Positions 17,214-20,142 of a DNA stretch of 29,024 bases are shown piece after piece. A program made the position numbers and the translations under genes. A model generated the notes under the pieces. It saw only the letters and a program-made list of their open reading frames with translations, had not been told where the DNA came from and ran no database searches. The stretch's first letter is position 1, and the number at the start of each line of letters is the position of its first letter. Source of the stretch: a virus; IMG/VR virus record IMGVR_UViG_3300012920_000183, positions 1 to 29,024 of that record; one strand, 5' to 3'.

Positions 17214-18293
17214 ATGGCTGCTATCTCAGTACAAAGAGAAACAACCAATAACTGGCAGAAGTTTTGCGAGTGGGTTACTAGCACACAGAACCGCCTTTAC
17301 GTAGGTTGGTTCGGCGTGTTAATGATCCCTTGCTTACTAGCCGCTGCTACATGTTTCATACTCGCCTTTATCGCTGCGCCCCCAGTGGACATCGATGGCA
17401 TACGTGAGCCAGTTTCCGGCTCGTTACTATACGGAAACAATATTATTTCAGGAGCTGTCGTCCCCTCCTCTAACGCAATCGGACTACATTTTTATCCCAT
17501 TTGGGAAGCCGGAACTTTAGACGAATGGTTATACAACGGCGGCCCATATCAACTCGTTATCTTCCACTTCTTAATAGGAGTAGCTGCATACGCTGGAAGA
17601 CAATGGGAACTTTCATACAGACTAGGAATGAGACCATGGATATTTGTTGCATACACAGCCCCACTATCCGCAGCTCTTGCGGTGTTCCTTGTATATCCAT
17701 TTGGACAAGGGAGTTTTAGTGATGGTATGCCTCTTGGTATTTCTGGTACTTTTAACTTCATGTTTGTATTCCAAGCAGAACACAATATCCTTATGCACCC
17801 GTTCCACATGCTCGGTGTTGCTGGGGTATTCGGTGGATCTCTTTTCTCTGCTATGCACGGAAGTCTCGTTACTTCCTCGATTATTAAAGAGACAACAGAA
17901 GAGGTATCACAGAACTATGGCTATAAATTTGGTCAAGACGAAGAGACATATAACATCGTTGCAGCTCATGGCTATTTCGGTAGATTAATTTTTCAATATG
18001 CTTCTTTCAATAATTCTCGTTCTTTACATTTCTTTCTTGCTACTTGGCCCGTGGTTGGCATATGGCTCACCTCAATGGGAATCTGCACAATGGCTTTCAA
18101 CCTTAACGGTTTCAATTTTAACCAATCAATAGTTGATAGTAACGGAAAAGTTATTCCTACTTGGGCTGATATTGTAAACAGACAAAACCTTGGTTTTGAA
18201 GTAATGCACGAGCGTAACGCTCACAACTTCCCACTCGACTTAGCAAGTGCTGAATCAACACAAATTGCTCTTACAGCCCCAGAAATTGGTTGA
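17214..18293 (+). CDS. psbA: Photosystem II reaction-centre protein D1
   Basis: This is a full-length 359-residue D1. Tyr161 (VYPFG) and Asp170 are in place, as are the [12 protein letters not shown] chlorophyll/iron region and [19 protein letters not shown] of the QB pocket. The Mn-cluster C-terminus [13 protein letters not shown] carries His332, Glu333 and Asp342, with cleavage after Ala344 leaving a 15-residue extension. Residue 130 is Gln (GRQWELS), the D1:1-type form. It replaces damaged host D1 so photosynthetic electron flow continues during infection. There is no frameshift or intron. It follows hli with zero spacing. Acquired from a picocyanobacterial host by ancestral transfer. Confidence 0.98.
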
Positions 18294-18366: not shown

Positions 18367-18501
18367 ATGCCACACCAAAATTCAACCATGAGAGCTGGAG
18401 CTTGTCCTTATGTTATTGAACCAGAAACAAAATCTGATAAAGAAACTAAGGAAAAGCTAGAAGCTCAATACAAAGAACCTGAAGGAGATCCTTCATATTA
18501 A
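18367..18501 (+). CDS. Hypothetical small protein after psbA, 44 aa
   Basis: The frame from ATG 18367 gives MPHQNSTMRAGACPYVIEPE followed by a highly charged tail (KSDKETKEKLEAQ). It has no recognised homologue. The same frame is open upstream into psbA, and a TTG at 18286 would add a hydrophobic N-terminus (FLIYLTLLTNLFICSG) resembling a membrane anchor. That stretch is very AT-rich and could be non-coding. No clear ribosome-binding site supports either start. It may be co-transcribed with hli-psbA. Confidence 0.5.
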   Translation: MPHQNSTMRAGACPYVIEPETKSDKETKEKLEAQYKEPEGDPSY

Positions 18502-18502
18502 T

Positions 18503-18664
18503 ATGACTGCAAACGTAAGACACTGGAAAGCTACAACAGGTAGAAACAATCCTGTTGAAGTAGAAGAAGAAATTAAACCAGTAGGAAAAAAGCGTGATAA
18601 CAAGGGACGCTATATAAAAAAGAAAGAGCCTCAATCATTAGAGGAAGCTCTTACAGAAAACTAG
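18503..18664 (+). CDS. Hypothetical small charged protein, 53 aa
   Basis: The frame opens one base after the preceding stop and ends at TAG 18662-18664, just before the riboswitch. The product begins MTANVRHWKATTGRNNPVEV. It then has an acidic EEE run, a basic block (GKKRDNKGRYIKKKEP) and an acidic end (SLEEALTEN). It is probably disordered with alternating charge. I do not recognise it. Its tight spacing places it in the post-psbA operon. Confidence 0.58.
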   Translation: MTANVRHWKATTGRNNPVEVEEEIKPVGKKRDNKGRYIKKKEPQSLEEALTEN

Positions 18665-18670
18665 CCACTA

Positions 18671-18734
18671 CGTCCGTTCATCCCTTACGGGACGCATGAC
18701 TCCAAAGCATGGAACGGGGCTTTGGTACTGAGGT
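18671..18734 (+). ncRNA. Glutamine-II riboswitch (Downstream-peptide motif)
   Basis: The sequence matches, from memory, the Downstream-peptide RNA motif of marine cyanobacteria and cyanophages, now known to bind glutamine. CGTTC (18675-18679) pairs with GAACG (18712-18716), which lies in the loop of a perfect 7-bp hairpin CCAAAGC (18702-18708) / GCTTTGG (18719-18725), giving a pseudoknot. A small hairpin TCCC (18681-18684) / GGGA (18689-18692) with TTAC loop sits between, followed by GCATGAC. The Shine-Dalgarno GAGGT (18730-18734) follows directly and serves the peptide at 18740. Ligand-dependent hiding of that site is the likely mechanism. Confidence 0.85.
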
Positions 18735-18739
18735 TAATT

Positions 18740-18838
18740 ATGTCTCCAGTAGAATTACAAGCTCGACTCAAAGAGCAGAAAGATTTTAAAAGAGAAACTT
18801 TACTTAAGTATCGTGGCATCACATACACAAAAAGATAA
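18740..18838 (+). CDS. Riboswitch-controlled 32-aa peptide with DUF4278-like YRGITY motif
   Basis: ATG 18740 lies 5 bases after the Shine-Dalgarno GAGGT at the end of the glutamine-II riboswitch, which fixes the start. The product reads MSPVELQARLKEQKDFKRET and ends LLKYRGITYTKR. The YRG-I-Y core resembles the short cyanobacterial DUF4278 motif. This is the small downstream ORF after which the RNA motif was named. Function unknown. Regulation by glutamine suggests a part in nitrogen metabolism or its manipulation during infection. Its stop codon is within the stem of the next RNA structure. Confidence 0.8.
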   Translation: MSPVELQARLKEQKDFKRETLLKYRGITYTKR

Positions 18839-18876
18839 TCGGTAAGCCGACTGGGAGGTGCAAGTCCTCCCTTATC
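18834..18876 (+). ncRNA. Compact three-way-junction RNA with tRNA-like T-arm
   Basis: All bases fall into nested perfect stems. GATAA (18834-18838) pairs with TTATC (18872-18876). TCGG/CCGA (18839-18842 / 18847-18850) has a TAAG loop. GGGAGG/CCTCCC (18853-18858 / 18866-18871) has the 7-base loop TGCAAGT, which has the U54-C56-A58 pattern of a tRNA T-loop. The closing stem includes the stop codon of the 32-aa peptide. I do not know a named family for it. It could be an mRNA processing or stability element, or a degenerate tRNA 3' part. Confidence 0.5.
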
Positions 18877-19017
18877 AATTTGGCTTTTGCCCTCTAAGGA
18901 GGATACCATCAGCCGTAATTACGGTGGGATAGACCACAAACATTAATGAGACGCATAAGTCTCGCAACTTTTCACGCGTGAAGACGATTATTTATACCTC
19001 TAATTTTTAACTGAAAA
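18877..19017 (+). other. Hairpin-rich leader of the capsid gene
   Basis: There is no convincing ORF. A chain of small perfect inverted repeats is visible: CCTC-TAAG-GAGG (18891-18902), CCGTAATTACGG (18913-18924), GTGG/CCAC (18924-18927 / 18934-18937), GAGAC-GCATAA-GTCTC (18948-18963) and TTCACGCGTGAA (18971-18982). An AT-rich run follows to the capsid ATG at 19018, without a Shine-Dalgarno sequence. This is where a late phage promoter or RNA processing sites would be expected. No consensus could be confirmed. Confidence 0.45.
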
Positions 19018-20142
19018 ATGGCTCAACAGTCTACAGGGATGCAATCCAGCGTTACTATGCCAGGTGCTAGTAATAGTGCTGGAGATAGACGCGCCCTTTA
19101 CTTAAAGCTGTTCTCAGGAGAGATGTTTAAAGGATTCCAGCACGAAACAATTGCTAGAGATCTTGTAATGAAGCGTACTCTAACCAACGGTCAGAGCATG
19201 CAGTTCATCTATACAGGTCGTACTGGCGCGGAATTCCATACTCCTGGAAATAGCATACTTGGAAACTCAGATGGAACACCTCCAGTAGCTGAGAAAACAA
19301 TCACTTGTGATGAACTACTAATCAGTTCAGCATTCGTTTACGAGCTGGATGAAACATTGGCTCACTATGATTTGAGATCAGAAATCTCAAGAAAGATTGG
19401 TTTCGCACTTGCTGAGAAATATGACAGACTTGTATTCCGTGCAATTACACGAGGAGCAAGAGCTGCCTCACCAATTACAAAAACTGGTTTTGTAGAGCCA
19501 GGCGGTACTCAGATCAGAGTTGGTTCAACAACTAATGATTCTGATGCTTATGCTTCTGCAAATCTCGTCAACGCTTTCTACGATGCAGCCGCTGCAATGG
19601 ATGAGAAAGGCGTTTCTGGTGACGGAAGAATTGGTGTTCTTAACCCAAGACAATATTACAGCTTAATTCAAGCTGTTGGATCTAATGGTCTAGTAAACCG
19701 TGACTCACAAGGTACTGCTTTACAAGGTGGTAACGGAGTTATTGAAATAGCTGGTATCAAGATCTACAAGTCAATGAATATTCCATTCCTTGGCAAATAT
19801 GGTGTTGCTTATGGTGGCACAACAGGAGAAACTGCTCCTTCAAACTTAGGTTCTTTTGTTGGACCTACTCCAGAAGATGCTTCTGGTGCAGAAACAGGAA
19901 TTAAAAACGACTACGGTACTAACTCAGAGTTAGGATCCAAATCATGTGGTTTGATATTCCAGAAAGAAGCTGCTGGTTGTGTTGAAGCAATCGGTCCTCA
20001 AGTACAAGTAACTTCAGGTGACGTATCCGTGATTTATCAGGGTGATGTTATCTTAGGTCGTCTTGCAATGGGTGCTGATTACTTAAACCCAGCTGCGGCT
20101 GTAGAATTATATGTTGGTGCTTCTGCTCCTTCAGGATTCTAA
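19018..20142 (+). CDS. Major capsid protein, T7 gp10-like
   Basis: This 374-residue HK97-fold podovirus capsid protein (T7 gp10A is 345 aa) shows family features: the N-terminal AGDRRALYLKLFSGEMFKGF-type opening, the GRTGAEFHTPGNSILGNSD loop, DYLNPAAAVELYV at the C-terminus, and the absence of a long delta domain because scaffolding is a separate gene. It builds the icosahedral shell with the portal and scaffold encoded upstream. The photosynthesis cargo separates it from the scaffold gene, unlike in T7. A strong terminator follows, as after T7 gene 10. Confidence 0.96.
   Translation: MAQQSTGMQSSVTMPGASNSAGDRRALYLKLFSGEMFKGFQHETIARDLVMKRTLTNGQSMQFIYTGRTGAEFHTPGNSILGNSDGTPPVAEKTITCDELLISSAFVYELDETLAHYDLRSEISRKIGFALAEKYDRLVFRAITRGARAASPITKTGFVEPGGTQIRVGSTTNDSDAYASANLVNAFYDAAAAMDEKGVSGDGRIGVLNPRQYYSLIQAVGSNGLVNRDSQGTALQGGNGVIEIAGIKIYKSMNIPFLGKYGVAYGGTTGETAPSNLGSFVGPTPEDASGAETGIKNDYGTNSELGSKSCGLIFQKEAAGCVEAIGPQVQVTSGDVSVIYQGDVILGRLAMGADYLNPAAAVELYVGASAPSGF

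Follow-up and report, generated by a model that had tools for sequence, protein, structure and literature searches.

Known glutamine riboswitches and their peptides

The Glutamine-II riboswitches (RF01704; Ames and Breaker), published in 2010 as the Downstream-peptide class with peptides of 17-100 aa, bind glutamine and are reported as ON switches that are proposed to act on translation. The crystal structure (6QN3, PMC6698751) revealed glutamine contacts at C1, G2, G18, C19, C39, G40 and G41. In picocyanobacteria these type-2 glutamine switches are linked to DUF4278 proteins (PF14105), relatives of the N-terminal part of IF17, a factor that inactivates glutamine synthetase (PMC6316151). Yfr6 of Prochlorococcus (PMC1242208, PMC2518516), a free-standing gene, gives a short RNA that has this 5′ element and encodes a conserved peptide of ~33 aa; nitrogen depletion lowers this RNA. 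Glutamine riboswitches were previously reported from T4-like cyanophages, where Glutamine-I (glnA, RF01739) has the same ligand and is likewise followed by YRG ORFs. Both hosts and T4-like cyanophages are already known to carry riboswitches of this class.

A Glutamine-II aptamer between psbA and the capsid gene

The stretch analyzed here (the window) is a virus record of 29,024 nt, with the gene order of a T7-like cyanophage: hli, psbA, major capsid, tail tube. The features of the riboswitch region and its flanking genes are as follows.

17214-18293, + strand: psbA (photosystem II D1), ORF, the upstream neighbor; P-SSP7 and others share this order
18672-18726, + strand: Glutamine-II riboswitch aptamer (RF01704), full length by cmscan
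18675-18679, + strand: pseudoknot strand CGUUC, pairing with GAACG at 18712-18716 and including ligand contacts C1 and G2
18682-18691, + strand: P1 stem-loop CCC-UUAC-GGG (arms 18682-18684 and 18689-18691), from alignment and sequence
18693-18695, + strand: linking strand C17-G18-C19 (triplex, long-range pair), from comparison of the sequence with the crystal structure
18702-18725, + strand: P2 stem CCAAAGC/GCUUUGG (arms 18702-18708 and 18719-18725), with the pseudoknot loop GAACG at 18712-18716
18730-18733, + strand: Shine-Dalgarno GAGG, 6 nt ahead of the ATG at 18740 and 3-4 nt past the aptamer end
18740-18838, + strand: 32-aa peptide ORF, MSPVELQARLKEQKDFKRETLLKYRGITYTKR, with a single C-terminal YRGxxY motif (YRGITY)
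19018-20142, + strand: major capsid protein gene, ORF; relatives are annotated as major capsid at the same position

An earlier note on this DNA had proposed a Glutamine-II riboswitch and called for a covariance search, which bore the class out: cmscan scored RF01704 at 52.4 bits (E 3.6e-10 over the window; gathering cut-off 33 bits), far above chance and the sole Rfam match within the 29 kb window. The aptamer was also over cut-off in a search of its own record, and none of 14 control genomes had a match. Glutamine-I (RF01739) was rejected as the class (17.9 bits, cut-off 35), and its three-way junction is unlike the window aptamer. Both strands of the pseudoknot that the note had drawn, CGTTC with GAACG in the loop of CCAAAGC/GCTTTGG, are present, and the equivalents of all contact bases are in place (C18675, G18676, G18694, C18695, C18715, G18716 and G18717). 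P2 covaries freely across related phages: of 39 distinct arm pairs, 33-39 form a standard pair at each position. In fold, pseudoknot, contact bases, start-codon distance and short downstream ORF the window agrees with the described Glutamine-II members, and its score, its P1, pseudoknot, P2 and contact bases, and its location in a 5′ UTR, near the start codon of a short conserved ORF, are those of an RF01704 member.

The module lies between psbA and the capsid gene, as the note had stated, whereas Yfr6 stands alone; it is not immediately 3′ of psbA, because two more small ORFs (18369-18501 and 18504-18665, both without family matches) intervene. Between 18280 and 19050 no promoter-like site was found, nor any sigma-70-like site ahead of the aptamer, so the region is probably a single transcript. 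A Shine-Dalgarno was not found ahead of the capsid ATG (19018). Elsewhere in the window, positions 1878-2750 hold an ORF that looks like a candidate tyrosine-type integrase.

The downstream peptide carries one YRG repeat

The short YRGITY peptide that the note had placed behind a Shine-Dalgarno is encoded there, its ATG 14 nt 3′ of the aptamer and the Shine-Dalgarno in between. Downstream of the aptamer, a YRGxxY ORF was found in 98 of 99 sampled T7-like cyanophage loci, the 99th reading YRSVTY. At the motif window, differences at codon positions 1, 2 and 3 numbered 8528, 9120 and 16696 and the median dN/dS was 0.35; the invariance of the motif in this codon analysis comes partly from row selection, which leaves the 98/99 association unaffected. 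These comparisons support a conserved coding sequence in which most changes at the motif are synonymous.

The phage peptides are 13-39 aa long, with one exception of 79 aa, and have a single YRG repeat in 95 of 96 loci, whereas the 18 host peptides read are of 33-62 aa and have two repeats (11 peptides) or three (7 peptides). The window thus departs from known Glutamine-II members in lying in a phage and in having one repeat instead of 2-3; even the 33-aa peptides of the host type found here, the length of the Yfr6 peptide, carry two. Host peptides matched Pfam DUF4278 at 35.1 and 29.1 bits (gathering cut-off 25.3 bits). Several phage peptides reached only the last DUF4278 repeat, at 14.7-21.4 bits and under the cut-off; they share the YRGxxY core and the upstream glutamine switch with DUF4278 proteins and the IF17 N-terminus (PMC6316151), but lack the glutamine synthetase-binding part. 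The window peptide gave no Pfam match at E up to 1 and, as a candidate Pfam or PHROG member, no convincing match; we describe it as resembling one DUF4278 repeat and not as a DUF4278 member.

Distribution in phages and hosts

The aptamer lies in the neighborhood of psbA or of the capsid gene in P-SSP7, P-SSP3, P-GSP1, S-TIP37, S-RIP2, NATL2A-133, NATL1A-7, S-TIP28, S-CBP1 and others, most of whose records have no annotation at the aptamer itself. RF01704 was detected in all 14 related phage loci scanned, 13 of them over cut-off and the other (L015) in a split form, and the aptamer lies upstream in 62 of 74 contigs that had been gathered through a different element, the capsid leader described below.

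Hosts also carry the family, over cut-off in 42 of 61 genomes with 1-7 copies each (controls 0/14), and the neighbors hli and psbA are host-derived, so the module could be host DNA that travels with psbA/hli and is useless to the phage. We regard this as very improbable: the module is kept across many T7-like cyanophage genera through large synonymous change, the one-repeat form is phage-specific, and T4-like cyanophages have their own version made of glutamine-I and a YRG ORF.

A predicted glutamine ON switch

The aptamer, its conservation, the coding sequence linked to it and the resemblance of the peptide to a host family are direct observations; that this RNA binds glutamine, that it switches ON, that the peptide is translated and what it targets, we infer. 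Taken together, we consider it likely that 18672-18838 is a host-derived translational class II ON switch whose peptide adjusts nitrogen assimilation via a host-protein partner. The phage would have acquired the riboswitch from its picocyanobacterial host. At high host glutamine, ligand binding would stabilize P2 and the pseudoknot helix, which would leave the Shine-Dalgarno open to the ribosome and allow synthesis of a short peptide amounting to little more than one YRGxxY repeat. Host copies of the switch drive small DUF4278 proteins with 2-3 repeats, kin of the IF17 N-terminus. Since the peptide looks like one YRG repeat of these host proteins, it most likely binds their partner, as competitor or mimic, and nitrogen assimilation (glutamine synthetase or its regulators) would thereby be adjusted during infection. 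An effect on glutamine synthetase itself is uncertain, because the DUF4278-like part of IF17 is dispensable for glutamine synthetase inhibition (PMC6316151).

Folding predictions for 57 phages, in which aptamer formation opened the Shine-Dalgarno more in 16, less in 3 and changed it little in the rest, are weakly compatible with an ON switch; a conserved expression platform, looked for by folding across the phages, was not found. A weak and unconserved predicted platform would also suit a glutamine switch of the opposite sign (OFF) or one acting at another level, transcription termination. This is quite unlikely, as no + strand terminator-like site occurs in the aptamer/peptide region, the class is reported as ON and proposed to be translational, and nitrogen depletion lowers the host Yfr6 RNA. 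The translational ON switch would represent phage-coded sensing of a host nitrogen signal, conserved in T7-like cyanophages, which infect the main photosynthesizers of the ocean, and its minimal one-repeat peptide offers a test of the role of host YRG/DUF4278 proteins in the cultured phage P-SSP7.

A conserved RNA element in the capsid leader

The note had singled out the riboswitch as the clearest candidate for an under-described regulatory system in the window. With the class in print since 2010, that description better fits the capsid-leader RNA downstream and the nested ORFs of relatives, neither of which the note mentions; the strongest new leads adjoin the riboswitch rather than lie within it. 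The 180 nt from the peptide to the capsid ATG are likewise conserved, and contain the following features.

18834-18876, + strand: tRNA-like mini-structure, abutting the capsid leader
18834-18838 and 18872-18876, + strand: its acceptor GAUAA/UUAUC, overlapping the peptide stop codon
18839-18850, + strand: its arm UCGG-UAAG-CCGA
18853-18871, + strand: its T-arm GGGAGG-UGCAAGU-CCUCCC
18880-18939, + strand: capsid-leader RNA element, 60 nt, covarying and absent from Rfam
18971-18982, + strand: self-complementary segment UUCACGCGUGAA, of variable sequence and palindromic in relatives

The leader element stands shortly ahead of the capsid gene in at least 120 IMG/VR contigs, and 18880-18939 matched no Rfam family at E values of up to 5. 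Our covariance model R1 scores 77.1 bits on the window leader, which was among the 28 sequences used to train it. Covariation was 0.352, compared with 0.119 for shuffled and at most 0.09 for slid alignments, and the helices of the 28 distinct sequences showed two-sided changes in 73 cells, compared with 28 shuffled and at most 15 slid; the phages are related, and these leader counts, like those of the palindrome below, do not represent independent events. The model was strong in 22 of 23 loci matched in one set and 59 of 60 in another, weak in S-TIP28 and S-CBP4, and without a match in any host-only locus tested. Matches to the leader pattern in genome contigs (32 found, ~30 expected by chance on our own estimate) were mostly rejected; the real ones, which contain the element in full, are Prochlorococcus SAG L148, L140, L149, L154, L163 and L164. 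Leader and glutamine switch are separate modules, because no switch lies within 1.5 kb of 12 of the 74 leaders. In many phages the two are 300-1370 nt apart, with other genes in between. The literature covered, which took in few subscription papers, holds no report of the element.

Between the element and the capsid ATG, 114 of 127 distinct leaders contain a perfect palindrome that is 8-16 nt long, with 53 different sequences among them, and centered 32-52 nt ahead of the ATG. Palindromes of at least 10 nt were observed in 78% of leaders and in ~11% of shuffles. A DNA-level dyad was rejected: G.U accounts for 80 of the 114 pairs at which the palindrome breaks (17% expected), and since the outer pairs run into G.U, an RNA-level role is favored. 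A plain hairpin was rejected as well, as it leaves the self-complementary innermost pairs unexplained; a dimer needs these pairs and a hairpin does not, which suggests from the sequences that the palindrome lets capsid-leader RNAs form dimers. No second copy of the window palindrome was found within 2 mismatches. The leader element itself contains a second palindrome, in the style of CCGT-AATT-ACGG in the window and with CTAG, CATG or TATA elsewhere. L014 (2640-2760) and L010 share a structured-looking stretch, GGAACGGTTTAAGGA...CGGAAAGCG, located between their YRG ORF and capsid gene.

A tRNA-like structure ahead of the leader

Among 61 relatives with the T-arm, a set that includes a few chance loci, 40 have a tRNA-like structure whose acceptor forms at least 5 Watson-Crick pairs, compared with 21% for mixed tails. 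Three contigs have a true tRNA-Gly(UCC) at the same place, its 3′ end within one base of the leader element:

L013, 3743-3813: tRNA-Gly(UCC)
L021, 1327-1399, - strand: tRNA-Gly(UCC)
L061, 5185-5257, - strand: tRNA-Gly(UCC)

As either the tRNA-like fold or a true tRNA-Gly abuts the element, tRNA punctuation is suggested, in which the transcript would be cut at the 3′ end of the tRNA-like fold and the capsid mRNA would begin with the element. In 63 of 132 upstream regions (for example L007, L008 and L010), a hairpin with the conserved loop CACCTCAGAGTCGG replaces the tRNA-like fold.

ORFs nested inside glutamine aptamers of relatives

The P1 of the window aptamer is plain. In about ten T7-like loci, the Glutamine-II 5′ strand CGTTC lies 186-213 nt ahead of the remaining aptamer, and P1 is occupied by an ORF of 54-60 aa (phrog_628). 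The nested ORF starts with an ATG 13-21 nt past CGTTC and ends within the ligand-binding strand, where the TGA/TAA of GACGCA-TGA/TAA serves as its stop codon. The cognate P1 arms of these split aptamers pair at -11.6 kcal/mol, compared with -7.0 for mixed arms. Six T4-like cyanophages (P-TIM40, metaG-MbCM1, P-RSM6, P-SSM7, P-RSM4 and S-TIM4) carry two glutamine-I-type aptamers in tandem, with a YRG ORF behind them. The second aptamer holds a different nested ORF, whose stop codon is directly ahead of (A)GGAACGG, and in P-RSM4 and S-TIM4 the first aptamer also holds an ORF. Rfam misses the split aptamers. The loci are as follows.

L015, 2331-2530 (S-SBP1 gp32); L051, L065, L076, L097, L117, L121, L133, L154 and L164: Glutamine-II aptamers with a nested ORF
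L219, 700-1115 (P-TIM40); L220-L224: tandem aptamers of T4-like cyanophages

No report of ORFs nested in riboswitch aptamers appeared in the literature, of which few subscription papers were covered. Such an arrangement could conceivably act as a toggle, in which glutamine would close the stem holding the nested start codon and free the downstream start codon.

These nested ORFs, the peptide stop codon inside the acceptor stem in the window, and the probable single transcript would also fit a role in cis, with glutamine-gated translation of the ORF controlling the folding or processing of the downstream RNA and the peptide itself being of little use. We judge this unlikely, because YRGxxY is conserved as amino acids while its codons change synonymously, and because the switch is often distant from the leader or missing from its surroundings.

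More tentatively, cyanophages may build multi-part leaders around glutamine aptamers: in the window a switch, the YRG peptide, a tRNA-like cleavage signal and a self-pairing capsid leader in succession, and in relatives a two-way protein toggle. If confirmed, a capsid-gene RNA element that Rfam lacks and the nesting of ORFs in a ligand-binding RNA would be of wider interest for RNA biology. The phrog_628 protein family also occurs free-standing, in 190 cyanophage records.
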